A DNA stretch of 43,597 nt from a virus, in the IMG/VR virus record IMGVR_UViG_3300017734_000018, positions 1-43,597 of that record. One strand, given 5' to 3'. The translations under genes and the position numbers were made by a program. How positions within the stretch are numbered: the first letter of the stretch is position 1; each line of letters opens with the position of its first letter. The notes under the pieces were generated by a model. The model was not told the origin of the DNA. It saw only the letters and a list, made by a program, of their open reading frames with translations, and made no database searches. Positions 2,774 through 43,117 of the stretch are shown in pieces.

Positions 2774-3010
2774 TTAACGTGATCCTAAGCCAGCACGTTT
2801 CATTTGGGGTTGTTCTGTATCTGGTTGTTGTACTGGGGCTGCTTCTACTGGAACATCCCTAGGAAAAAGACCTTGCATCTCAGGGAAGAGTTTACCTAAA
2901 GCATCTCCTATAGGTGTCTCAGGTACTCTTCTAAGAACTGATTTATCTTCCTCAGGTAAATTTAAAAACCTATTCAGAACTACTTCTTTGTATTCTTCAA
3001 TACCTTCCAT
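2774..3010 (-). CDS. Conserved small head-module protein
   Basis: This is a 78-residue acidic protein starting MEGIEEYKEVVLNRFL. The ATG at 3010 overlaps the stop of the preceding large gene as TAATG, so translation is probably coupled. An upstream in-frame TTG at 3022 also exists but is less likely. The N-terminal half is helical with the pattern LNLPEEDKSVLRRVPETPIG, and the C-terminal half is Pro/Gln-rich and probably disordered. Similar short proteins occur next to scaffold genes in marine phages. I do not know a function. Confidence 0.7.
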   Translation of the reverse strand: MEGIEEYKEVVLNRFLNLPEEDKSVLRRVPETPIGDALGKLFPEMQGLFPRDVPVEAAPVQQPDTEQPQMKRAGLGSR

Positions 3011-6000
3011 TACTTGATCCAATCTTTTTCTAGTCTATTAACCATTGCCTTGTAGGTAGTATAAGCGTTATCAAGCATATCCTTTTTGATATACTCAACA
3101 GACTTATCAACCTGAGATCCAATCCAGTCCCAGTCTTTATGATCAGATGGAATAGATGCAACAATCTGAGGAGCTACTCTGTAATACTTTTCTACCTCTT
3201 CTGGTATACCCACTAAGTAAGTATCTCTAAAGTTTCTTAGGGTAGTCAATGTCGGTCCATTATCCGCTTCACCTCTACGTTCAACAATAGCTGTAGTCAG
3301 GAAGCAACCACCGCTATCTGAAGCCTCATTAGCATTGTCTGTATTAGAACTATCTCCAGCAGCCGACTCATTAGCCCGTCTGTTAGCTGTAGCTACGTAG
3401 TGATCTGTTAAGGCAGGGTTAGCCGCCAGAGATTCTTTCTCTCTATCTGACAAGTGATTAGTTACGTTAGCACTTGTGTTAGGATTAGTCTTATCTAGTC
3501 GAGTAGACTTGTTATTACTTGTAGAAGGTTTTGCAGCAGGCTTTGCTGCGGGTTTTGCTGTAGGCCTTGCCTTAGGTCTAACTGTTGTTGCCCCTGGTTT
3601 AAATACGTTTACTGTCTCACCCTTATCACTGGTTGAAGTTCCCACAAAAGTACCGCCTAAGTCTTCACCTCTGATTGGACCTTTTCTTACAATAGAACCG
3701 TCATCGTCAACAGTGGCACCCTTATACCCTGGGCTTTCTGCTATAATGTACTCGTTGACGTTTTCTTTACCTTTATCACTTAAGTCTTTGAAGTCAATAA
3801 CAGCATCCTCAGGTGCATCTATACTTGTAGCAGCTTCAATAGCGTTGTTAAATCTTCTAGTACCTTTAGCTACGTACTCGTCAAGTGTGTCAACAACCCC
3901 CGGGGCATTTTTAATAAAGTTGTCTATTTCAGTTTGGATAGCTGTAGCATCCTCGTCTTTACCTAAGAACTCAGCCATCTGTAGGTTTGCTTGGGCCTTA
4001 GAAACAGCAGTAAGTTGTCCTGCAGCATTAGCCATACCAAGACCAAGACCTAAGAATGGATTAATAGCAGTAGCTACAATTCCAGCGCCTTGAGGTATTT
4101 TAGTGGCCCCTTCTAGTGCATCCTTAGCCCCTTGAAGAGGATCTTTTAGATTGACACCACTGTCCTCGTATAGAGCTTGAACACCTTCAGGAGTATTGGG
4201 ATCTACCTTTGTTCTAATGTCTATGTCATCAGTTTGATCTTTGTCATCACTTGTTGCAACACCCTCAGTAGTTACCTCTGGTGCTGCCTCTTCTACACCA
4301 AAGTTAAGTTTAGTTCTGTTATCTGGGGTATCTTCAAGGAACTCACCAAAGTCAGCTGGAACAGTGCTAATCGGTCTACCATTCAAGATAAGGACGGATA
4401 TTCTTCTGCCATCCTTGTGGATGTAAAAGGTTGTCTTCATACCACTTTCACCAGTAGGTGTCGCATCTGGTGTAGTAGTTGTCGTTGTTGAAACAGGAAT
4501 AGCTGTTGTTGGAGCTTGTTCCATAGTTGTGTCTAATCCATAGATCTTATTTGGATCTGTAACAGTCGGTGTGCTTACCTGTGGTACTTGAGGTGTAGTA
4601 GGTGGCGTTGGGGCTGCTGAGACAGGATTTCCGAATGGATCTAACTGCTGGCCTTTGTAAGTTGTTCCTACAGAAACACCTTCAGCTGCTTTAAGAGGTT
4701 CTTTGTACATCATAGCTTGCTGCTGGTACGGATCAGTAGGAGCCATCTGTTGACCTACCATACCACCCATAGCCATACCAGTCGGTTCTTCTGCTGACAT
4801 AACTTCTTGAAGTAAAGCCATCTCATCATCTGTTAGTTCATCATCATCTGGAATTGTCTCACCACCTATACGACCATTGACTTCCATCTGAGCAAGGTCA
4901 GTCTTAGCCTGAGAACGTAAGTCTTCGAAGAACTTAACACCATAGTATCGAGTAACGTCAGCAGGAACTACATACTCACCTTCGGACAGCATAGCTGGGA
5001 TATCATCTCGTACTTCTTTAGGTGTTGATCCTGGTGGTACTTCATTCCCTGATACTGGATCAATTTCGTCTACATCACCACCAAGAGCATAACCAGCACG
5101 GCTAGACTTAAACACTACATCCATTTGATCTTTCATTGCCATACCGCCTTCGTTAAATTTTTGCGCAGAACCCATGCCCTCTGGTGCTGATGCTGTAGCA
5201 TCTACCTCAATATAGTCGTACAGTGGGTGTTCTTTCTTACCTACTCTAATAGTTCCTATTTGATCACCAAGTGTAACGTCACCTACTGTAGCAGGACGTA
5301 GATTTGGCTGAGGTACTTCTTCTTTAATTTTTCCCGTATCTTTATTTTTACGTTTTACTTTCTTGGTAAGTCTGTCCATGCGAACAGGGCCAACAAACTG
5401 TGTATCTAAAGTATAGAAGTGACCTTTCTTACCACTCATACTTTGAACAGCAACAATAGGATGGTCTAAAGATCTTTTTCCTTCATCTGTTACCATACTA
5501 AATCTTTCAGGTTGAAGCAGGTTAGTACGAACTTCTGGTCCTGTATTACCAGTAGCAGCCTTATAGTTTGCCTTCATGTCAGCTATAGTTAAGGAAGGAC
5601 CATCATAAAGGTTGGCACGGGCTACAGACTTATTGCTCTGCCCAAATGTTGTTTTCTTTTGAGAGGGGCGAGCAGATACAAATAAGTTTTCAAAGGTTTC
5701 ATTGCTTACATCTTTAGGAGCACCCTTACCCATCATAATGTAATTACCGAACTCAAGGTCTAACTCGATGTCAGCATCTTGAAGCATACCAACAAACCTA
5801 TCCCCTTTGTAACCTTTCTTAGAGGGGTCAAAGAACTTACCAGGTCCAGGCATAATACTTCCAGCTGTTTCAGCAGACATAGCTCTCCCTAACCTAGGGT
5901 CTAAGTCAGCAGCCAAATCCTCTGAGGGACGAAGAATAGCTTCACCTGTTTTTTTAACTTCTTTGCTAGTAGACTTAACTGGAGTCATTACCTCTTCAAA

Positions 6001-7407
6001 GGTATCTTTCTTTCGGATAGAACCTACACCAAATGCAGAAGTAGTGCTTGTATCGATCTCATACTGAGAAGCTTTATTCTTTAGAGCCTTTAGTCCTTTA
6101 GATCCGAACTTAATCGCTAAACCACCAAGAGCTATCATAGCAGCCTCAGTTGCAGCGGACTTCCCAGCCTTATTTAATTCCTCTCGAATGTAGTTATAGT
6201 TGCGTTCTTCTTCAGGTTTAGTATATTCATCTATAACATTAACTATGTTACCCCCAGCCTCATAGAAAGGAACTAGAGTTTCACCTGCTTTATCTAGGCC
6301 TGCCATAAGTTCTTCTTCAGAAACATTTTCCTTTAGGAAGGAACCAAAGCCACTAAAATCAAACGCACCTTCTCCTCTAAAACCAGGTCTACGAGAAAAG
6401 GGGCTAGTCTTCTTTAAGGGTGGCGTAGCTAGAGTAGTATCTTTCTTTTCAGTTTCAGTAGGGTTAGTCGATGGAGCCGAAAAGTTTAAGTCACCCATCT
6501 GATTTGATAAACCAAAAGTATCTTCTGACACCATACCCCCTTCGTTGAAACCTAACTTAATTTTAATCTTATCTAAAAAGGACTCTTTATAAGAAGGTGC
6601 TTGAGGTGGCTCTCCTGACTCAGTAAGTATATCTTGAGCAGCTTCCATTAACTTTATATAAGGCTCATACTTTTTAACTAAAAATTTTGACCTGTCTTCG
6701 GGTTTCTTTTTTATTAATTTTTGAAACTCTTTTATTCTATTTAAATCTACTTTGTCTAAGTCAGAAGCAGGATCTTCCCCTCTAAGAATAGAATTAGCTA
6801 CATCATCAAACATCTCTGTAGTGCCTTCATGTGATTCTCCAGAAGCACCTATCAAAGCATTGAAAGCTCTCTTTCCGTATTTTTCTTGAAACTTTCTTTG
6901 ACCAGCTAATGGCCCACCTGGGTCATTGTTTATTTCCTCAATAATTCTATCAAATCCTCTATGAGACATTTCATGTGACCAAGTACGGGGGTTAGCTGTA
7001 TCAACGTCTGTTACAATAGAGTCAGGGGTTGTTGCTGAGGCAACCTCACTGGGAACACCCTCTGCTTTTAGCAATGAGGTAGCTTTTTTTTGGGATATAT
7101 TAGACGGAACATAAAAGGCGTTATCCTTTATATCCAGACCAACTATTTTTTCTGAAAAACCTTCGGGTACTGTAAGGTTAGTTACTTTATCTCTTTCGTA
7201 CCCCTTAAAACCTAAGCGAGCAATAGGATTCCAAGACATGGATGGATCAAACTCTGCCCTAGATTCTACGGTAGCTAGGCTGTATTGTCTTTCTGGATCA
7301 CTGATTCTACGTCTAGGTGTTATAGACGTTTCAGGAGCAGAAGATTTCTTTTCCCCTAATCCCTTTGGTCTAGGTTTTGGTCTTAAGGATTTTTTAGGAG
7401 CCGCCAT
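3010..7407 (-). CDS. Large multidomain virion-module protein with HExxH motif and C-terminal CFI-box
   Basis: This 1465-residue protein is the largest in the window. Residues 1-40 are basic. Residues 145-149 read HEMSH, a zincin-type HExxH motif in the context RTWSHEMSHRGFD, with further acidic and His residues around 192-202 (ESHEGTTEMFDD) that could supply a third ligand. The middle has the marine-phage motifs NEGGM (twice) and DDIPAMLSEGEYVVPADV followed by TRYYGVKFFEDLR. A Thr/Pro-rich and then a Lys/Pro/Ala linker precede the last 100 residues, which begin GGCFLTTAI (Cys 1368) and contain LRNFRD, matching what I know as a CFI-box C-terminal domain. It lies between the portal-linked small gene and the scaffold gene. 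It could be a head or ejection component or a processing factor, and peptidase activity is unproven. Confidence 0.75.
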   Translation of the reverse strand: MAAPKKSLRPKPRPKGLGEKKSSAPETSITPRRRISDPERQYSLATVESRAEFDPSMSWNPIARLGFKGYERDKVTNLTVPEGFSEKIVGLDIKDNAFYVPSNISQKKATSLLKAEGVPSEVASATTPDSIVTDVDTANPRTWSHEMSHRGFDRIIEEINNDPGGPLAGQRKFQEKYGKRAFNALIGASGESHEGTTEMFDDVANSILRGEDPASDLDKVDLNRIKEFQKLIKKKPEDRSKFLVKKYEPYIKLMEAAQDILTESGEPPQAPSYKESFLDKIKIKLGFNEGGMVSEDTFGLSNQMGDLNFSAPSTNPTETEKKDTTLATPPLKKTSPFSRRPGFRGEGAFDFSGFGSFLKENVSEEELMAGLDKAGETLVPFYEAGGNIVNVIDEYTKPEEERNYNYIREELNKAGKSAATEAAMIALGGLAIKFGSKGLKALKNKASQYEIDTSTTSAFGVGSIRKKDTFEEVMTPVKSTSKEVKKTGEAILRPSEDLAADLDPRLGRAMSAETAGSIMPGPGKFFDPSKKGYKGDRFVGMLQDADIELDLEFGNYIMMGKGAPKDVSNETFENLFVSARPSQKKTTFGQSNKSVARANLYDGPSLTIADMKANYKAATGNTGPEVRTNLLQPERFSMVTDEGKRSLDHPIVAVQSMSGKKGHFYTLDTQFVGPVRMDRLTKKVKRKNKDTGKIKEEVPQPNLRPATVGDVTLGDQIGTIRVGKKEHPLYDYIEVDATASAPEGMGSAQKFNEGGMAMKDQMDVVFKSSRAGYALGGDVDEIDPVSGNEVPPGSTPKEVRDDIPAMLSEGEYVVPADVTRYYGVKFFEDLRSQAKTDLAQMEVNGRIGGETIPDDDELTDDEMALLQEVMSAEEPTGMAMGGMVGQQMAPTDPYQQQAMMYKEPLKAAEGVSVGTTYKGQQLDPFGNPVSAAPTPPTTPQVPQVSTPTVTDPNKIYGLDTTMEQAPTTAIPVSTTTTTTPDATPTGESGMKTTFYIHKDGRRISVLILNGRPISTVPADFGEFLEDTPDNRTKLNFGVEEAAPEVTTEGVATSDDKDQTDDIDIRTKVDPNTPEGVQALYEDSGVNLKDPLQGAKDALEGATKIPQGAGIVATAINPFLGLGLGMANAAGQLTAVSKAQANLQMAEFLGKDEDATAIQTEIDNFIKNAPGVVDTLDEYVAKGTRRFNNAIEAATSIDAPEDAVIDFKDLSDKGKENVNEYIIAESPGYKGATVDDDGSIVRKGPIRGEDLGGTFVGTSTSDKGETVNVFKPGATTVRPKARPTAKPAAKPAAKPSTSNNKSTRLDKTNPNTSANVTNHLSDREKESLAANPALTDHYVATANRRANESAAGDSSNTDNANEASDSGGCFLTTAIVERRGEADNGPTLTTLRNFRDTYLVGIPEEVEKYYRVAPQIVASIPSDHKDWDWIGSQVDKSVEYIKKDMLDNAYTTYKAMVNRLEKDWIK

Positions 7408-7588
7408 TTACTTTATCCCTCAAGCGAGTCAAAGATCGTAGAGCACGTACTTCACCTTGAAGTCTGTATAGTTCCTCTACTTCTGTTCGTTGTTCTAGCT
7501 GTTTGTAAGCAAACTGGATGCGAACCTCTAACTCTTCTAGCATCGCATCCCAAGAGTCTTTGTTATTAACTACTAACTTTAAGTTCAT
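7394..7588 (-). CDS. Small coiled-coil protein after portal
   Basis: This is a 64-residue, mostly helical protein (MNLKLVVNNKDSWDAML...). Its ATG overlaps the portal stop as ATGA at 7585-7588, and its 3' end overlaps the next gene by 14 nt, so it is locked into a coupled translation chain. Heptad-like Glu/Leu/Arg spacing suggests a coiled coil. Comparable short proteins follow the portal gene in marine T7-like phages. The function is unknown. Confidence 0.75.
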   Translation of the reverse strand: MNLKLVVNNKDSWDAMLEELEVRIQFAYKQLEQRTEVEELYRLQGEVRALRSLTRLRDKVNGGS

Positions 7589-9717
7589 GCAGCACCTTGC
7601 TGCCCTGTATTACCTGAGAAGCCCTGTTCTCCTGGCTGAGGCGCTGTACCAGTTCCTATGTTACCACCCCCTGCTCCAGAAGTATCCTGTACTCTAGGGG
7701 CTGCTCCCGCTCCCTGAGGGCCACCCTGAGGTGAGGGTACACCTTGCTGAGGTTTTGCTTCAGGATTTTGAGCTTGGAACTCTTTTAGAAGTTCTGCTTG
7801 TAGTCTAGCATCAGCCATCGAGTTGACTACCTTATCGGGATCAAGATCCATAGACTTAGCAATCTCTCTGATAATGTAATCCATCTTAGAGAACGGAGCT
7901 AAAGTTGGATTCTGGGTAATCTGTAAGAACTGAAGTAAACGCTGGCTGCGAACTTCATTAGCCATTAAGCTTTCAGTACCTTGTGCTTTAACTTCTAAAT
8001 CACCTTTAATCTCTTGATCAAAATCAAACTGCATATTAAAGTTAAAGAAAGCTTTACCTAATGGAGAAAGTAAGTAATCGTCTACGTTCTTAACCACATT
8101 ACGAATAGAACCATTAGCAGCAGACATAAGCATACTAATACCGCTTGCAGTCCTACCAACACCGCTAACCCCTGTTTGACCATGTGCAAAAGACGGGAAC
8201 CCTGTTGATTCATCTGCTAATACCCTCGCCTTATCGAAGAGTTGCATGTTCTCATTAGATACATTGGGAAACTTGGTCCCAAAGATTCCTTGACCAGGCG
8301 CCCCTCCCTGTCTCCTAAACACCTTGCCAGGGTACACGGAGAGGTCTTGCCCTGGGACGAGATTTGTCTCGTCAACCTCGATGATAAGATTGCCAGATAA
8401 GGCGGCATTGTCAACTGCCATTCTCATAAAGCCATTCATCAAAGTCTGCGTATCGTCCATATTCTCAGCAATACCTACACCAAAGAAGCTGTAAGGATTA
8501 ACTTCGTAAGGTACAGCGTAGTAAGGAATGTAAGAAGGTGTAAATGGATTAAGAACTAAACGGAGAACCTGCCCATTGCAGATCCATACGTTTACAGAGA
8601 CTTGGTCCACATCTTCCATATCTTCTGGGATGTCTACGTTTTGATCCTTTAGAATCTCAGTATCCATGTAACCCCAGAACTCTAAGACTTCAAAGCGTTC
8701 ACTGCGTGACTCCTGCTCATCATCATCCATAGCTTGTTCCCACCACTCTTTAGTGTAGGATTCACCCATAGAGATTGCTGTATCAATAGAGTTTGTGCGG
8801 AAGAAAGGTCTGTTCTTAAGTGCTCTGAGTTGAGTACGAGACATCTTGTGACGCTCGATGATATACTCTGCGTCATCCATGTTAGATGCATCAGGATCTG
8901 GGTAGAAGTTCCATATAGAAACAGAGGAGCACTTAGGTACAGTCTTAATAAGAGGTGAGTAGTCTCCTTCTTCAGACCAGTTGGGGTACTCCTTGTCTAC
9001 AGCAAACGGACCTTTCATAATGCCTGTACCAAACAGTGCACACTCAAAGGCTGCTGTACGTAGTTCTTTTCTAGCGTTTGATTCCTCTAGTTGATCATGG
9101 ATCTTCTTCTCCATTTTCTTAGCGGAAATCATAGCTGGATGAAAAGTAATTTGAGTAGGTGACTCAGCTTCACCTTCCATAAGGTTTTCTTCTACGGGTG
9201 CTAGTTTTTCTTTTAGTCCAGCTAGTCTTTCTCTAAAATCTACAAGAGTTTCACCTGGCTCTAAGGTTGGAACGCCTTGATCCTCAGGGGCTTGTTGCTC
9301 ATTCATTTTCTTAACAGAGTCTTCTGTCTCAAGACGAACAGCTTCTGTTACACCATCGGGTAAGATAGTGGGGTCAATACTAATAGGAAACTTGTTAGCT
9401 CCAAAAAGAACTTCTACAATCTGACCGTAAGCAGCTAGAACTTTAGTCTTTGTGACTTTAACAAACACTCTAGACTTTTCAGTAGAGGTAAACTGGACAT
9501 CTGGTCCATACAGACCCCTGTAGTTTCTATAAGCTCTAATCCAGCGTTGCTCTTCTCCATTTCGAGCAGTCTCAGCTTTACTAAAACGTTGTTGGATATA
9601 ACCTACAATAGTACCTACTAGAGGATCACTAGTATCATTCTCTTCGGTATCCTCAATGTAAGATACTTCAGCATCTTCCATATAGACTTCTTCAGCTAAG
9701 ATGTCATCTTCTTCCAT
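7585..9717 (-). CDS. Portal protein (head-tail connector)
   Basis: The 710-residue protein has an acidic N-terminus. A region around residues 75-110 (FTSTEKSRVFVKVTKTKVLAAYGQIVEVL, quoted only in part here) is typical of large marine podovirus portals of about 700 residues. It has an alpha/beta body and a Gly/Pro/Gln-rich disordered C-terminus. The portal forms the dodecameric ring at one capsid vertex through which DNA is packaged and ejected. It lies directly downstream of the large terminase with a 9-nt gap. ATG 9717 has an AAGGA site. Assignment rests on size, order and characteristic sequence. Confidence 0.88.
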   Translation of the reverse strand: MEEDDILAEEVYMEDAEVSYIEDTEENDTSDPLVGTIVGYIQQRFSKAETARNGEEQRWIRAYRNYRGLYGPDVQFTSTEKSRVFVKVTKTKVLAAYGQIVEVLFGANKFPISIDPTILPDGVTEAVRLETEDSVKKMNEQQAPEDQGVPTLEPGETLVDFRERLAGLKEKLAPVEENLMEGEAESPTQITFHPAMISAKKMEKKIHDQLEESNARKELRTAAFECALFGTGIMKGPFAVDKEYPNWSEEGDYSPLIKTVPKCSSVSIWNFYPDPDASNMDDAEYIIERHKMSRTQLRALKNRPFFRTNSIDTAISMGESYTKEWWEQAMDDDEQESRSERFEVLEFWGYMDTEILKDQNVDIPEDMEDVDQVSVNVWICNGQVLRLVLNPFTPSYIPYYAVPYEVNPYSFFGVGIAENMDDTQTLMNGFMRMAVDNAALSGNLIIEVDETNLVPGQDLSVYPGKVFRRQGGAPGQGIFGTKFPNVSNENMQLFDKARVLADESTGFPSFAHGQTGVSGVGRTASGISMLMSAANGSIRNVVKNVDDYLLSPLGKAFFNFNMQFDFDQEIKGDLEVKAQGTESLMANEVRSQRLLQFLQITQNPTLAPFSKMDYIIREIAKSMDLDPDKVVNSMADARLQAELLKEFQAQNPEAKPQQGVPSPQGGPQGAGAAPRVQDTSGAGGGNIGTGTAPQPGEQGFSGNTGQQGAA

Positions 9718-9726
9718 AAGTATTCC

Positions 9727-11316
9727 TTAATATCCAAACGTTGAGTCTGCTGCCTGAAAGCCTGTACGTTGTGAGCTAGAGTCAAAGTCAAACAAGTTAC
9801 TTCTAGGTCTTGTCATAATCCCATACCGTAATGCATCGTATACGTGATCTTCTGCTTTTGTGTCTACATCTTCAGGGTTGTTTTTATCTATAGGCAAGGC
9901 GGGTAGTTGAGCTATCGTATTGTAGCAAGTACTAAAGAAAACTAATCGAGGCTCTTCAGTAAACTCATCTACCTGCAGTCTTCTGTGTAATTCGTTTTTA
10001 CCTGCTATACGAGAACCTTTAGATCTATCTGCTGGTCTCCACCTACAACCTTTAACTATCATTTGTTCAGCCAGTGATGGCCCAGTGTCACCACGCTTAT
10101 GCCATAAAGAACTATCCAGAACACCATATCTTATTTTCTCATCTGATTCAAGTTCTAAAACCATATCAGCTAAATCAGTTGCTAGTACTTTAGATACGTA
10201 AAGTTCCCGATAGACTATAAGCTGTTCATCTGGGGCAACAGCAAACCAAACAACAGCACTGTAAGATCCGTATCCGTAGTCAGCTGCTCTAAACCTAGGC
10301 CAGCTTTGAGGTATCTCATAAGGTTCTACCACATGTACTTTACGAGTAAATTCAGGAAAAGCGGCCCCTTCATTAATGTCCCAGTCTCCCTCAAGCAACT
10401 GCCTTCTTTGGTGCTCAGGCAGAGAGAGTAGGTTGGCTTCGTACATCCCGTCATCAGACAGGTAAGGATTATCAAACAAAGTCGCAGGAATAAACTTTCT
10501 CTTAAATAGAGGATCACCTTCCCTGCTATGTCCTTTAGGCCAACAGATAGTTTCTCCATCTTGATCTGTAGCCCAAAATGCACGATTAGGAGTACCTGGA
10601 TCAATGAAGGTTCTTTTAACCCATTGATGACCTGGACCCCCTGGGTTACTCGTAGCCCTCATGTATAAGGGTAACCCCGAAGCTTTTGTAGTACGTAGCC
10701 TTGAACGCATGTAGTTCCAGGAATAGTCTGAAGGCCACTGTGTAAGTTCGTCAAAGCCAATCCAGTTAAAGGCCTGACCTTGGTATCTCATAACGTCATC
10801 GTCACGGTCTAGGTAAGACATCCAGAGAGTTGCACCACTAGGAGCTACCCAAGTCTTATCTCGTTCCATAAACTTAATACCTGGTATAGCCCTTGGGTAT
10901 AGCTGCTTAGACACTGATATAAGTTCTCTTAACTCTTCTGTGCTTCTCCGTACAATTAACATCCTAGCGTTAGGGTTGTTTAAGTATCGCACTGGATCAG
11001 CTACTAGACTATACGACTTACCACCACCAGCGGCACCACCGTAAAGTACTTCTTGTTCTGTAGCGGCTAAGAAGTTTGTTTGAGGACCAGGGTTAGGCTC
11101 AAAGATAATATCTTGCTTAACTTGCTCTAAGTCTGCATCAGCTGGCTTCGGAACTGCTGGGGTCTGACTCACTGTCTCCAAAGATTCTTTTGGCAGCTCT
11201 ACCACCAATTCTTTCTTTTTCGATTTTCTCCGCTTTCCTTGCCGCTTCTTTATACTTTTTGGCATACTTCCTATAGCTAGAGGAAGCTCGTCTGCGCTTT
11301 TCTTCGATCCTGACAC
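9727..11316 (-). CDS. terL: Terminase large subunit
   Basis: The 529-residue DNA-packaging ATPase/nuclease has Walker A GGAAGGGKS at residues 93-101 and Walker B FNWIGFDE at 183-190. A C-terminal nuclease-type region contains RFRAADYGYGSYSAVVW and a conserved EDHVYDALRYG near the end. It powers DNA translocation into the procapsid through the portal. The start is uncertain: GTG 11316 gives 529 residues and ATG 11265 gives 512, and no ATG lies further in before the ATPase core. Either start makes the Lys-rich N-terminal extension overlap the upstream HTH gene out of frame by about 130-180 nt. Confidence 0.93.
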   Translation of the reverse strand: MSGSKKSADELPLAIGSMPKSIKKRQGKRRKSKKKELVVELPKESLETVSQTPAVPKPADADLEQVKQDIIFEPNPGPQTNFLAATEQEVLYGGAAGGGKSYSLVADPVRYLNNPNARMLIVRRSTEELRELISVSKQLYPRAIPGIKFMERDKTWVAPSGATLWMSYLDRDDDVMRYQGQAFNWIGFDELTQWPSDYSWNYMRSRLRTTKASGLPLYMRATSNPGGPGHQWVKRTFIDPGTPNRAFWATDQDGETICWPKGHSREGDPLFKRKFIPATLFDNPYLSDDGMYEANLLSLPEHQRRQLLEGDWDINEGAAFPEFTRKVHVVEPYEIPQSWPRFRAADYGYGSYSAVVWFAVAPDEQLIVYRELYVSKVLATDLADMVLELESDEKIRYGVLDSSLWHKRGDTGPSLAEQMIVKGCRWRPADRSKGSRIAGKNELHRRLQVDEFTEEPRLVFFSTCYNTIAQLPALPIDKNNPEDVDTKAEDHVYDALRYGIMTRPRSNLFDFDSSSQRTGFQAADSTFGY

Positions 11317-11614
11317 GTTTGTCTAACCCTACATGTGATATATACCTACCTGACTGTTGAGATAACCACTTAGCTACTTGCCTTAGGCTGTACTCTCGTA
11401 GGAATAGTTTTGCTTTTTCTAAAAGTTCTAATTCTTCTGGTAAGGGTATTAATAAATCAGGATCTTCTTCATCCTGTTTGTATCCAAAGGGTACATGTCT
11501 TCCAACTCGTATAATCGGATACCACTCTCCGCTTTCTCCTCGTAGTGGTATCTGCCAGTCTATCTTAGCTGGATACTTTGCTTCAGACGCTCTAGCAGTT
11601 TTAATCTTCGGCAT
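11138..11614 (-). CDS. HTH-containing protein between terminase genes
   Basis: This is a 158-residue basic protein from ATG 11614 (an adjacent GTG at 11617 is an alternative). Around residues 75-105 the sequence YSLRQVAKWLSQQSGRYISH looks like a helix-turn-helix, and it is followed by a long Lys/Arg/Glu helical tail and a Ser/Asp-rich end. It overlaps the end of the small terminase gene by 14 nt and the start of the large terminase gene by well over 100 nt. A DNA-binding role in packaging initiation is plausible from context but not shown. Confidence 0.75.
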   Translation of the reverse strand: MPKIKTARASEAKYPAKIDWQIPLRGESGEWYPIIRVGRHVPFGYKQDEEDPDLLIPLPEELELLEKAKLFLREYSLRQVAKWLSQQSGRYISHVGLDKRVRIEEKRRRASSSYRKYAKKYKEAARKAEKIEKERIGGRAAKRIFGDSESDPSSSEAS

Positions 11615-11972
11615 CACTATCTTTTGATGGTAAAATAAATAGAGGCTCTGATGCTTTAACCTCTATCTTGTCTGTCTTAGTAAAACCTGCTCGATCTAAA
11701 ATGTCCTTAGCTGCTGTCATCTTTTCTTTGACACCTAGATCTGTTGGATCAGCCATTACACTAAACATAGTATACGCAGCCTTGGTGGATGACTGAGCAA
11801 TAAATTTTTTAGTTCTCTCAACAATCTCATCTTCAATAGCTCCTACAACCTGTGCTGTAGCTACACCTTCGGCGTATCCTGCAAGCTTTTTAGCTTTAAC
11901 AGGATCACCTCTGGCTTCATCAAACAGAACATCTAAGAACTTCTGTTGTTTTTCAGTTAGCTGTCTTGCCAT
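11601..11972 (-). CDS. terS: Probable terminase small subunit
   Basis: From ATG 11972 (AAAGGA site 7 nt upstream) the gene gives 123 residues starting MARQLTEKQQKFLDVLF. A longer frame reaches 12032, but it overlaps the DUF1127 gene and lacks a ribosome site. The opening (LTEKQQKFLDVLFDEARGD..AKKLAGYAEG) resembles the HTH start of small terminase proteins, followed by a helical oligomerisation region. It would recognise phage DNA and recruit the large subunit. It sits two genes upstream of terL, with the HTH gene between. Confidence 0.75.
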   Translation of the reverse strand: MARQLTEKQQKFLDVLFDEARGDPVKAKKLAGYAEGVATAQVVGAIEDEIVERTKKFIAQSSTKAAYTMFSVMADPTDLGVKEKMTAAKDILDRAGFTKTDKIEVKASEPLFILPSKDSDAED

Positions 11973-11991: not shown

Positions 11992-12141
11992 TTACTGGTT
12001 TTGACCAAAGACCTTATTGTAAATCTCACCACGGGAAATACCCATATCGTGAAGGTCTTTGTCTTTGAGGTTCATAAGAACCCAGTAGTCTGCTCTACGT
12101 TGTTGATGCTCTTGAAAGCGTGTTAGTAAGTTTCTAAACAT
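11992..12141 (-). CDS. DUF1127 (YjiS-like) small protein
   Basis: This is a 49-residue protein from ATG 12141 with a GGAG site about 10 nt upstream. Its second half reads LMNLKDKDLHDMGISRGEI, a clear match to the DUF1127 pattern L..L.D.eL.DiGi.R.ei. The N-terminus is Arg/Gln-rich (RFQEHQQRRADYW). DUF1127 proteins are short, abundant in Alphaproteobacteria and in some cases bind RNA or affect RNA turnover and stress or phosphate physiology. It is the first gene behind the promoter at 12212-12240, in front of the packaging genes. A phage copy could reprogram host RNA metabolism, which is an inference. Confidence 0.85.
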   Translation of the reverse strand: MFRNLLTRFQEHQQRRADYWVLMNLKDKDLHDMGISRGEIYNKVFGQNQ

Positions 12142-12197
12142 ATTTCTAAATCTCCAGTTAATTTGTGCGTGTTGGCTAGGATACCAACTGGAGACTA

Positions 12198-12240
12198 GTT
12201 ATATACGAATAGTTATATCATACTATAGATAAGATTGCAA
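12198..12240 (-). promoter_or_regulatory. Sigma70-like promoter for DUF1127 and packaging genes
   Basis: On the minus strand TTGCAA (12235-12240) is followed after 17 nt by TATAAC (12212-12217). A TG precedes the -10 by one base, making an extended -10. A second TATAACTAG lies 14 nt further down (12198-12203) but has no good -35. The predicted start is near 12205, leaving a leader of about 65 nt to the DUF1127 ATG. The -10 context TATAACTA matches the promoters at 1732 and 31135. Confidence 0.7.
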
Positions 12241-12252
12241 CCCCGTTATGCA

Positions 12253-12621
12253 TTATCTACGATTCGGATCAAAGTACTCTTCTACTGAAACAAGCACTTC
12301 CATAGTATTAGTAGTTTCACCATATACCATAATCTTATCACCTGAGTGTAAGTTAAAGTATCCACCATCAACTAGATTAACTACAGAGTGTCCTGCCATA
12401 CTAAGTCCATTAGCTATGTAATGATACTCGTTATCGTCGGCATGATAGAACTGTACAAACACTTTCTTAGTAGAAGTAGAACTATTACTAATGTGTAGAT
12501 ACCTAGTAATGGCACTAAAGTTAGCAGGGCAAGTATACACAGCGGTAGCACTAGCATCTGCCGAAGTAGATGCAATAGTGTACCCTTGTGTGTGAAACTT
12601 TGACTTACTTAGATCAGGCAT
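12253..12621 (-). CDS. Probable beta-rich virion structural protein
   Basis: This 122-residue protein has alternating hydrophobic beta-strand pattern (AITRYLHISNSS, KKVFVQFYHADDN, YHYIANGLSMAGHSVVNL), ending in FDPNRR. Similar short beta-sandwich proteins are annotated as head decoration or structural proteins in marine phages. The ATG at 12621 follows the stop of the upstream basic protein by 4 nt, so it is the last gene of the upstream lysis/basic-protein operon before the 111-nt gap with the packaging promoter. The function is inferred from its fold-like pattern only. Confidence 0.7.
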   Translation of the reverse strand: MPDLSKSKFHTQGYTIASTSADASATAVYTCPANFSAITRYLHISNSSTSTKKVFVQFYHADDNEYHYIANGLSMAGHSVVNLVDGGYFNLHSGDKIMVYGETTNTMEVLVSVEEYFDPNRR

Positions 12622-22658: not shown

Positions 22659-22735
22659 CCACCCTTAGCTCAACTGGATAGAGCAACTGCCTTCTAAGCA
22701 GTAGGTTGCAGGTTCGAGTCCTGCAGGGTGGGCCA
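22659..22735 (+). tRNA. tRNA-Arg (anticodon TCT)
   Basis: A full cloverleaf can be folded. The acceptor stem is CCACCCT with AGGGTGG, the D-arm is GCTC/GAGC, the anticodon stem is ACTGC/GCAGT around loop CTTCTAA (TCT at 22693-22695), and the T-arm is GCAGG/CCTGC with TTCGAGT. The discriminator is G and CCA is encoded. It reads AGA Arg codons, which phages with AT-leaning genes use more than many alphaproteobacterial hosts. It sits between coding blocks on the plus strand and is probably co-transcribed with them. Confidence 0.96.
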
Positions 22736-33840: not shown

Positions 33841-34073
33841 GCAAAGGTGTGCACATCTTAGTGGGGCGGGTAGACTGCCCCTTCTGCTCCCAGGCTATGG
33901 GCTTACTAAGAGACAAAGGTATATCAGTTCAGTACTACTCCTTAAATGATTCTAAATGGTTATTGGATTTGTTTAAGAAAGCTGGGCTAAAGACAGTACC
34001 TCAGATCTGGAGTAATGACGGTAAGTACGTAGGCGGTTACACAGAACTAAAGGAACACCTAGAAAATGGATGA
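33837..34073 (+). CDS. Glutaredoxin
   Basis: The 78-residue thiol-disulfide oxidoreductase has active site CPFC (residues 14-17), the cis-proline TVPQIW and the GGY motif of glutathione-binding glutaredoxins. It overlaps the ribonucleotide reductase stop as ATGA, so the two are made together, consistent with its being the reductant for that enzyme. Confidence 0.93.
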   Translation: MSKGVHILVGRVDCPFCSQAMGLLRDKGISVQYYSLNDSKWLLDLFKKAGLKTVPQIWSNDGKYVGGYTELKEHLENG

Positions 34074-34770
34074 CTTCCCAGAGAAGCCTAAAAGAACTAG
34101 AAGAAAAACAAACTACAAGAATGCTGTAAAGAAAAAGACATCTGGTATTCTACCTAAAGGTTCTAATCAAAAGCTTCTCATCAGTGCGCTCAAGGAATAC
34201 ACTCAAGTGTTTATCCTTGGGCCAGCTGGTACAGGTAAAACATACGTAACTGCTACCTACGCAGCCGATAGGTATACTCTAAAAGAAATAGACAAGATAG
34301 TAATCACTAGGCCACACGTAGCTGTCGGTAAAGACTTAGGTTACTTACCTGGTACACTAGAGGAAAAGACTTACCCTTGGGCCTTACCTGTTCTAGATGT
34401 TTTGATTAAGCACTTAGGTAAAGGGGCTGTAGAGACTGGCATTAAGAATGACAACATCGAGATGGCACCCCTTGCTTTAATGAGAGGCAGAAGCTTTGAT
34501 AACTCTTTCATTATTGTAGATGAAGCTCAGAACATAACTATCCACGAGTTGAAAATGTTATTGACTAGAGTGGGCGAAGGGAGTACTATTGTTCTTAATG
34601 GTGACGTTCAACAGTCTGACCTAAAGGAAGCTGATGGTTTGTCTAAGGTAATACATCTAGCTAAAAAGCATATGCTTCCTGTACCAGTGGTTGAGTTTGG
34701 AGTCGATGACATAGTTAGGTCGGACATCTGTGCTCAATGGGTAAAGGTCTTCATGAAGGAAGGTATGTGA
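34066..34770 (+). CDS. phoH: PhoH-like ATPase
   Basis: The 234-residue P-loop ATPase has Walker A GPAGTGKT (52-59) and Walker B FIIVDEAQN, followed by LTRVGEGSTIVLNGD as sensor-like region. The N-terminal 30 residues are basic. PhoH proteins are common in marine phages, and their role is uncertain, with proposed links to phosphate stress or RNA metabolism. It overlaps glutaredoxin by 8 nt. Confidence 0.93.
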   Translation: MDDFPEKPKRTRRKTNYKNAVKKKTSGILPKGSNQKLLISALKEYTQVFILGPAGTGKTYVTATYAADRYTLKEIDKIVITRPHVAVGKDLGYLPGTLEEKTYPWALPVLDVLIKHLGKGAVETGIKNDNIEMAPLALMRGRSFDNSFIIVDEAQNITIHELKMLLTRVGEGSTIVLNGDVQQSDLKEADGLSKVIHLAKKHMLPVPVVEFGVDDIVRSDICAQWVKVFMKEGM

Positions 34771-41296: not shown

Positions 41297-43117
41297 TTAA
41301 AATAACCAGCCAAAGAGAGCCTTCGTAATCTCTTGGTTAGCTCCAATTTCAGCTTGTAACTTAGCGGCGTCCAACTCAGCATCAGCAGCTAGTTTTGTAG
41401 TTATAATAGCGTTAGCTCTATCTTGATCATTCTGGTAAGCATTAAACACATAGTCCATCTCATCACGCTCACGCTGCCAGATCTCATCTAGTTCTGCCTG
41501 TGTTAAAGCGTTCTGCTCTTTTGCTACGTAGAGTGCTCTCTCATTAGCGGCTTCTTGGTTTGTCAGAGCAGCTGTCTGTCTCCACTTAGCATTAGCCTGT
41601 GCAACAACTAAGTTATTCGATATCATAAACTGTTTAAAGGCATTGTCCTGAGACACATTGAATTGTCTTGTTGCATTTACAGCATTAACATCAAACTGTG
41701 CTACAGCGTTTGTCTGGTCTGCATTGAACTTAGATACGTTAGCTTGAAGGTCAGCGAAGAATTGATTTGTTTGGTTCTCAGATGCAGCATTAAACTGAGA
41801 GGCAGCATTCTCAGCAGCTTGGTCTGTAAAGAGAGCCTGTATGTTTTGCTGTGCTCGAAACATCTCTGTCTGCTGTCTGTTGTTTAAGTTAGTCATATCC
41901 ATATTAAGAAATGATTGAGCGTTCTGTACAGCGGCTTGTTGTCTATTGTTTAGGTTAGCCATGTCTAAGTTAGAAAGTGCAGCAGCCTCAGCCATAACCA
42001 TTGCTTGATCATTTGATAAGTTAGCCAACTCCATAGTATTAGCAGCACGAGCATTCTCTAAGGCTACTTGCTGTTCAGCCGTGAAGTTCATATTAGCTAC
42101 ATCAGAGATCTTGGCAGAGTTAGCTACTCTAGATTGAAAAGCTTGATCGAACTCCATACCCATAAACTGAGCACGTTGTTGTGCTGACAGCATAGCACGT
42201 TGCTGTCTGTTTGACAAGTTCTGTGATTCAAACTGTGCCATAGTAGCAGCATCAGCTTGAGCAATAGGAATAGCTGACTCCATTGCTGCCTGTACGAGGG
42301 CTTGACCAGCTATCGAGGAAGCACCTAGACCTCTCGCAGCCATAGCGGCTGTAGCATTACGTAAAGCACCAGCGGCCCAGCTGGGTGTTTCACCACCCTC
42401 AAAGTCTTTCATCAGACTATCTAGCTGACCTTGAACAGTAGCTTTGTCTGAGGGTGTAGCAGTTGCAGCTTCAATCTGCTCAGTAAACTTAGCGGCCTTC
42501 TCAGCGTCAGCAGCACCAGTAATTAATTCACCTTCCTGTATCTCACGCTGTACAGGGTTGTTCATCATTACAGCAGCACCTTGAGCGGCTTGCATACCTG
42601 ATACAGCTGACTCATTCTGCTGGGCTGCTTTTACTTGTGCTTCTTCGCTTACAATACCTTCCTGTGCTTTAGTAGCTTCAGTCACAGCCTTTACAGCAGG
42701 GGCAGAAGTAGAGGGGGCTACCGTAGCAACACCTGGTTTTGTTGGGGCTGTAGCCTGGGCAGCAGTACCTACTGTATCAACACCAGCTGTAGTAGCTTTC
42801 TCATCAGCAAGAGGTTGAATCTCTTGGTCAGCAGAAGGTGTTATATAAGAATATGTAGGAGCCGCAACAGTAGTAGCTGGTGTGATACCACTTGATCCTG
42901 TCATACCGCCTGTCTGCATACCAATAGTTTTATTCTCAGGGGCAGTAGTAGGAATACCTTTCATTGCCTTAGCCTTACGCTCAAGACGTTGCACTAAAGA
43001 TCGAGCATCGGGCTTAGACTGCATAAATGCTTCCATCTCATCTTCTTGCTCAGACCCAGTGTAGCCTGTCTTAGATAAGATCGTGTATTTTTGTTTATTG
43101 CTGAACGTATTAAGCAT
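41297..43117 (-). CDS. Repetitive coiled-coil internal virion protein
   Basis: In this 606-residue protein residues of about 80-180 are Ala/Thr/Pro-rich and low in complexity. Residues of about 300-530 hold degenerate repeats of about 20 residues, with the recurring words NLNNRQQ, NAQSFLNMDMTNLNNRQQ, SQFNA and KFNADQTNAVAQFDVNAV. The pattern predicts a long alpha-helical rod or bundle. Similar proteins occur in the internal-core cluster of marine phages. It is probably part of the ejection apparatus. AGGAAA precedes ATG 43117. Confidence 0.75.
   Translation of the reverse strand: MLNTFSNKQKYTILSKTGYTGSEQEDEMEAFMQSKPDARSLVQRLERKAKAMKGIPTTAPENKTIGMQTGGMTGSSGITPATTVAAPTYSYITPSADQEIQPLADEKATTAGVDTVGTAAQATAPTKPGVATVAPSTSAPAVKAVTEATKAQEGIVSEEAQVKAAQQNESAVSGMQAAQGAAVMMNNPVQREIQEGELITGAADAEKAAKFTEQIEAATATPSDKATVQGQLDSLMKDFEGGETPSWAAGALRNATAAMAARGLGASSIAGQALVQAAMESAIPIAQADAATMAQFESQNLSNRQQRAMLSAQQRAQFMGMEFDQAFQSRVANSAKISDVANMNFTAEQQVALENARAANTMELANLSNDQAMVMAEAAALSNLDMANLNNRQQAAVQNAQSFLNMDMTNLNNRQQTEMFRAQQNIQALFTDQAAENAASQFNAASENQTNQFFADLQANVSKFNADQTNAVAQFDVNAVNATRQFNVSQDNAFKQFMISNNLVVAQANAKWRQTAALTNQEAANERALYVAKEQNALTQAELDEIWQRERDEMDYVFNAYQNDQDRANAIITTKLAADAELDAAKLQAEIGANQEITKALFGWLF

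Follow-up and report, generated by a model that had tools for sequence, protein, structure and literature searches.

In phage T4, the Shine-Dalgarno (SD) sequence or the start codon of genes e, soc, 49 and I-TevI is described as sequestered in RNA helices (PMC3014915). As an example, the early read-through RNA of gene e is reported to be shut off whereas RNA from the adjacent late promoters upstream is without the 5' strand of the helix and is well translated (PMC3014915). The T4 late promoters are read with the phage sigma factor gp55 (PMC3014915). A second set of related systems is found in bacteria, where the DUF1127 proteins (PF06568) are small and include CcaF1 of R. sphaeroides, the SDPs of A. 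tumefaciens and YjiS of E. coli and Salmonella. The core function of these proteins is described as debated (PMC12501420). Rhizobial DUF1127 genes are reported to be activated by the LysR-type regulator VtlR, for which the motif CAATGCAGCCATGCA has been given (PMC12595884), and VtlR binds upstream of the small-protein gene atu1667 in A. tumefaciens (PMC7486931).

Here, we describe a DUF1127 gene in a virus contig of 43,597 bases, the whole of which is referred to as the window. As in the gene e gate, at least as far as that gate is described in PMC3014915, the SD of its leader is placed in a hairpin with a 5' strand that extends into the promoter region, in this case as predicted from the sequence. 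Unlike the T4 gate, the arrangement is found in unrelated podophages, has a fixed upstream box and would act on a host-type regulator. Since the phages are unrelated and the transcription start used here is a predicted one, the roseophage gate is counted as analogous to the T4 gate and not as a member of that system. Our preferred reading, to which we assign a probability of about 0.6, is a start-site-dependent gate on a long-resident host-type DUF1127 regulator in HMO-2011-type roseophages. The initial annotation of this DNA did not include the conserved box upstream, the second -10 element or the SD hairpin, and the box together with the hairpin interlocked with the -10 is the part worth specialist attention. 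A limited search of the open-licence literature returned no account of the DUF1127 gene or its promoter in these phages, and an SD hairpin interlocked with the -10 was likewise undescribed there.

The DUF1127 gene and its neighbours in roseophages

The gene is located among co-directional genes of the window:

12253 to 12621, minus strand: co-directional gene upstream of the DUF1127 gene (open reading frame with a match to PHROG 1276, of unknown function), from which the read-through RNA of the gate model would come
12141 to 11992, minus strand: DUF1127 gene, 49 amino acids, ATG start (open reading frame and PF06568 match)
11601 to 11972, minus strand: TerS, the next gene, with its ATG at 11972 (PHROG 2538, E 1.7e-08)
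9727 to 11316, minus strand: TerL (PHROG 979, E 7.8e-60; 89.4% identical to that of CRP-13)
7585 to 9717, minus strand: portal / head-tail adaptor protein (PHROG 332 and 1216)

PF06568 was the sole Pfam match of the 49-residue peptide (E 2.7e-05). It scored 24.3 bits, where the curated cut-off is 23.3, and the alignment spans positions 1-37 of the 37 in the model. A six-frame search of the DUF1127 stretch gave 23.2 bits, just under the cut-off, and the margin for the single protein is thin. The family was matched, however, by all 25 aligned viral proteins, the window's among them (E<=0.01), and a family search of whole records placed all 11 HMO-2011-type roseophage isolates above the cut-off, compared with none of seven other TerL relatives. 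The match of the window is therefore not a chance one, and the membership of its gene in DUF1127, as proposed by the initial annotation, is confirmed, both by a significant profile match and by the presence of the frame in relatives. The same annotation had called such a gene unexpected in a phage, a view which does not hold for a group where every isolate has it.

The phage and bacterial DUF1127 proteins have in common a D-(I/M/L)-G core followed by arginine and are predicted to be helical. The phage subgroup of the window differs from the bacterial proteins in a QQRRADYW stretch, in being less arginine-rich and in having its own promoter box. Residues R16, L22, L30, D32, G34 and R37 (window numbering) were observed to be invariant in 15 aligned phage proteins. 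An AlphaFold2 model of the window peptide shows three helices at moderate confidence (pLDDT 77.6, pTM 0.48), and a Foldseek comparison of this model with the PDB gave nothing significant, the best E being 4.2 and the matches mostly helix-turn-helix proteins. Two IcmE/DotG sequences matched over 18 residues were the solved-structure matches with E<0.001 and were taken as spurious.

With tblastn, the peptide was found in eight roseophages and three more with a diverged form were missed. The seven TerL relatives without the gene are HMO-2011 (SAR116), HTVC033P, HTVC115P and HTVC103P (SAR11), one spring-water virus, phiM6 (Sinorhizobium) and RHph_N3_19 (Rhizobium). The 37-aa frame upstream of TerL in HMO-2011, phage1322_57, was considered as a DUF1127 candidate and rejected as it has no likeness to the family. 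In GenBank, the records of CRP-603 and of three out of four Melnitz-type phages name DUF1127; in the CRP-13 record, the frame has no gene annotation of its own.

In comparison with Roseobacter phage CRP-13, the window has 89.4% identity in TerL and 79.8% in DNA polymerase; for TerL, other roseophages and phage HMO-2011 come next among the matches. The features that mark an HMO-2011-type phage, namely homologous TerL, portal and polymerase genes in a similar gene order, were all found in the window; CRP-1 to CRP-3 have been assigned to this group (PMC6918029). Because the CRP relatives infect Roseobacter, a Roseobacter like their hosts is also the most likely host for the window, which fits the earlier suggestion that the gene gives a clue to the host lineage. 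Elsewhere in the window, a tRNA gene (22659-22732, plus strand) was the sole Rfam match above the gathering threshold, a 606-aa protein (41297-43117) had no PHROG match and a 1465-aa protein (3010-7407, minus strand) had weak PHROG matches.

A search of viral contigs gave 192 stretches that code for a relative of the peptide, 80 of which were kept, and 229 related loci were gathered by protein or by DNA among the matches listed. Among these listed matches, 224 of the 229 loci have a co-directional TerS gene downstream, and TerL followed in 154 of the 156 loci having at least 3.5 kb of downstream sequence. The placement directly before TerS in the window could be taken to mean that the peptide is a packaging accessory which works with terminase. 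We consider this scarcely credible, as the TerS start is at least 300 nt away in 175 of 229 loci (median 723 nt, again among the matches listed), the seven phages above have a homologous TerL and no DUF1127 gene, and the family is a bacterial one. The gene had also been described as the head of the packaging operon. This stands for the window, where TerS, a 159-aa frame between TerS and TerL on the same strand, TerL and the portal gene follow, and it does not carry over to relatives in which, often, several genes separate DUF1127 from TerS.

Pairwise dN/dS among 41 distinct coding sequences has a median of 0.11 (334 of 820 pairs usable), and the pooled pN/pS was 0.21; the gene is under purifying selection. 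Given these ratios and the spread across isolates and loci, the DUF1127 gene is a fixed, constrained part of HMO-2011-type roseophages and not a stray acquisition by a single contig.

Phylogeny had been proposed as a way to find the donor lineage, and the comparison shows no recent donor among hosts. The 28 bacterial loci compared are 31-70% identical over 20-49 residues, with the 70% reached over only 20 residues, and the best matches are alphaproteobacterial (Sneathiella, Bradyrhizobium and roseobacters). In a tree of 68 rows and 46 columns, 33 of the 64 inner branches are open. Twenty-two of the 24 phage rows were found near each other and near Sneathiella, with a long Paracoccus row among them. 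Melnitz, a methylophage, and the Sinorhizobium phage Phosso stand apart in the tree and are without the promoter module. A fair statement is that the sequences point to an old acquisition from Alphaproteobacteria, with no donor that can be named. Some bacterial proteins, the Sneathiella loci among them, were observed to have two tandem DUF1127-like motifs.

The promoter module

The following elements were found upstream of the gene:

12235 to 12247, minus strand: upstream box AACGGGGTTGCAA with core CGGGKWT, a putative activator site recognised by sequence comparison
12212 to 12217, minus strand: -10 element 1, TATAAC preceded by TG, 17 nt from TTGCAA
12198 to 12203, minus strand: -10 element 2, TATAAC, kept in all relatives examined
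12189, minus strand: predicted transcription start, a purine right after the anti-SD CTCC, placed by its spacing to -10 element 2

In the window, the module reads AACGGGGTTGCAATC...TATAAC, where the C of CGGG is at 12245 and the -10 is element 2 at 12203-12198. The box AACGGGGTTGCAA also contains the -35-like TTGCAA (12240-12235) of element 1. An extended -10 promoter had been noted earlier and does exist, formed by this TTGCAA, the 17-nt spacing, the TG and the TATAAC at 12217-12212; the conserved -10, however, is the second one.

In all 47 leaders compared, CGGG and TATAAY are separated by 38-41 nt, while the sequence in between varies; the separation is 38 nt in CRP-2 and CRP-603. The pattern CGGGKWT-N35-38-TATAAY occurs once per genome, only before the DUF1127 gene, in the window (12245-12198) and in 10 of the 11 roseophages. 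CRP-235 is the roseophage without the exact pattern, where CGGC replaces CGGG. The pattern was found in none of the seven TerL relatives that are without the gene, and the reversed-pattern control gave no match. When IMG/VR was searched with the DNA motif only, a DUF1127 frame lay within about 140 nt in 150 of 160 among the matches listed (71 of 80 and 79 of 80 for the two motif versions used), and the remaining 10 listed matches resemble unrelated chance matches. One record, IMGVR_UViG_3300046167_000032, has two matches to the module in 80,374 bases (the isolates have 53-56 kb) and may be a chimera, a concatemer or a genome with two copies.

A host-derived promoter was considered and rejected. 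The pattern had one match in 198 Phaeobacter-family genomes against six for the reversed control, so its occurrence in the host genomes is by chance.

The position of the box suggests an activator site because it is placed about 50 bp before the start and element 2 has no clear -35; the box predicts an activator. The VtlR/LsrB-activated DUF1127 genes of Rhizobiales are likewise located behind an activator site, which in the phages is a putative one. Both the VtlR motif CAATGCAGCCATGCA, as given in PMC12595884, and the window stretch TGCATAACGGGGTTGCA have two TGCA half sites. The spacing of these in the window is 9 nt instead of 4, and the likeness, noted by eye, is partial. Because the left half site is missing from some of the phages, activation of the VtlR type is a lead only.

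Predicted leader hairpin over the Shine-Dalgarno sequence

Two arms that can pair across the leader, and a smaller alternative structure, were identified:

12186 to 12194, minus strand: 5' arm of the hairpin, TCTCCAGTT, anti-Shine-Dalgarno, complementary to the 3' arm at 9 of 9 positions
12151 to 12159, minus strand: 3' arm, AACTGGAGA, which contains the SD GGAG at 12155-12152 (complementarity and predicted fold)
12171 to 12188, minus strand: small alternative hairpin in the predicted fold if the RNA starts at 12189

The read-through leader of the window folds with -17.8 kcal/mol (z -3.13), and none of 200 shuffled sequences was as good. By prediction, the SD lies in a helix of the read-through RNA in the window and in most leaders. 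Of 40 distinct leaders, 36 have a mean SD pairing probability above 0.9; among 76 control genes from these phages, the number is 10. All four SD bases were paired in 28 of 32 leaders, with partners always at or before about position +1. Counted from the first base of the -10, these partners are 5 to 13 nt away, which places them in the interval that separates the -10 from the expected start. Two phages, CRP-235 and CRP-738, have the SD partners upstream of the -10, and there the promoter falls in the loop.

We noticed that the sequences of the arms vary among phages while the pairing is kept, with changes on both sides next to the SD. As an example, position +4 beside the SD was found in 32 leaders as U-A (19), A-U (7) and C-G (3), and position +5 as all four Watson-Crick types (A-U, U-A, G-C and C-G) in addition to U-G. 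For 57 distinct arm pairs, own arms pair at a mean of -11.0 kcal/mol against -7.9 (sd 0.3) for swapped arms, a control that ignores the relatedness of the leaders. The complementary arms, which overlap the -10/+1 region, could also be read as a DNA operator, a repressor site across the -10 that overlaps the SD only incidentally. This would leave the very variable spacing of the arms among leaders, unlike that of a fixed operator, to be accounted for, as well as the co-variation of the arm sequences and the location of the SD within or abutting the 3' arm, and we regard it as very unlikely.

The bases that pair with the SD are placed such that RNA begun about 8 nt after the -10 would be without the arm. 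The predicted effect of this was followed in 91 distinct leaders. Mean SD pairing fell from 0.87 in the read-through RNA to 0.38 in the promoter RNA, with a drop of more than 0.3 in 70 of the 91. Pairing above 0.8 in the read-through RNA was found in 66 of the leaders, with 25 below, and pairing under 0.5 in the shortened promoter RNA in 61. When the RNA of the window begins at 12189, its minimum-energy fold contains the small 5' hairpin and leaves GGAG unpaired; SD pairing in the ensemble is still 0.65. Many of the 25 low leaders belong to a second type, in which CACATAG, located just 5' of the SD and running into it, pairs with a CTATGTG that directly follows the -10. The SD is only partly covered in this type and an inner CTAGC stem is present. 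CRP-2 and CRP-603 resemble it in a weaker form, with pairing that is partial or just 5' of the SD.

Read-through RNA is expected at this locus since all 11 isolates have a co-directional gene upstream. A perfect sigma-70 consensus, TTGACA-16-TATAAT (12 of 12), was found at 16919-16892 on the minus strand, inside a 1.2 kb gap between divergent gene blocks, and is likely the main promoter of the leftward block and a source of read-through.

The choice between the two -10 elements bears on what the hairpin might do. The geometry in which the RNA is without the 5' strand fits element 2 and its predicted start. Element 1, however, is present in the window and in roughly half of the promoter stretches, and RNA begun there would carry the complete hairpin. 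It could then be proposed that element 1 is the main start and that the mRNA retains a 5' hairpin as a shield against decay or as a site of autorepression by DUF1127. Such a reading draws on the -35-like TTGCAA at 17 nt and the TG of element 1, on the 53 promoter stretches, out of 116 distinct ones, that have the TTGCA-N-TATAA geometry and on CcaF1 of R. sphaeroides, which is described as an RNA binder that acts with RNase E (PMC10253847). We consider it unlikely, as the geometry is absent from the other 63 stretches while element 2 is kept throughout, the 5' arm of CRP-235 and CRP-738 precedes their sole conserved -10, and the loop and stem sequences are very variable, with no common protein-binding motif seen in them.

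Proposed gate and candidate functions of the protein

The start-site-dependent gate remains our preferred reading, and it is built on the observed family membership, conservation, promoter module and pairing geometry. A dedicated promoter, composed of the CGGG box and the TATAAY -10, would drive the operon that the DUF1127 gene opens, and an anti-SD segment of 7-8 nt would lie directly after the -10. Read-through RNA from the upstream genes would include the anti-SD arm, fold and hide the ribosome site; RNA begun at the promoter of the gene itself would leave the SD free for translation. The protein would thus be made only when its own promoter fires, most likely late in infection, and might then mimic or compete with host DUF1127 proteins through PhoR binding or RNA binding. 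The transcription start, the late timing, the activator and the protein target are the parts of this model that are predicted. Surplus CcaF1 is reported to impede the growth of R. sphaeroides under microaerobic conditions (PMC10253847), and such harm from overproduction offers a reason for a lock on the phage DUF1127 gene.

Two functions were weighed for the protein, and as candidates they are about level. The first, which we put forward tentatively, is a change in the phosphate uptake of the infected cell, brought about by binding of the phage protein to PhoR, a sensor kinase of the host. DUF1127 proteins of S. meliloti, R. sphaeroides and E. coli are reported to have restored an A. tumefaciens triple mutant, and members from A. 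tumefaciens and E. coli to interact with PhoR (PMC12501420). The phage also encodes PhoH, a gene of interest beside a possible PhoR-binding peptide (34066-34770, plus strand; PHROG 170, E 4.9e-81). The Agrobacterium proteins damp phosphate uptake, however, and the benefit of this to a phage is not evident. The second, in line with the RNA-turnover idea of the initial annotation, is that the protein is a CcaF1-like RNA binder which changes the turnover of host or phage RNA. The binder CcaF1 is known from R. sphaeroides, of the same family as the hosts (PMC10253847), whereas the window peptide has 10.2% arginine and a net charge of +2 in 49 residues, compared with an average of 14% arginine given for DUF1127 proteins (PMC12501420), and Salmonella YjiS, in the account of PMC11707872, has no sign of RNA binding. 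This function is a doubtful one as well. The gate model is independent of the choice between PhoR and RNA.

A more far-reaching version of the model may be described as a lock with two keys. An activator, of host or phage origin, would fire the unique promoter, only the RNA from that promoter would free the ribosome site, and DUF1127 made at this single moment would take over PhoR or RNA decay, as a control point conserved in Alphaproteobacteria, in Roseobacter cells. We hold this version, taken as a whole, to be improbable; if true, one of the most abundant groups of ocean phages would have arrived at a T4-like gate by an evolution of its own.

The phage DUF1127 gene, under purifying selection and with a box of its own and a predicted RNA lock, provides a natural minimal version of the family for a search for the host target. 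Furthermore, a fixed host-directed regulator in the Roseobacter-infecting members of the group may matter for the behaviour of infected cells.
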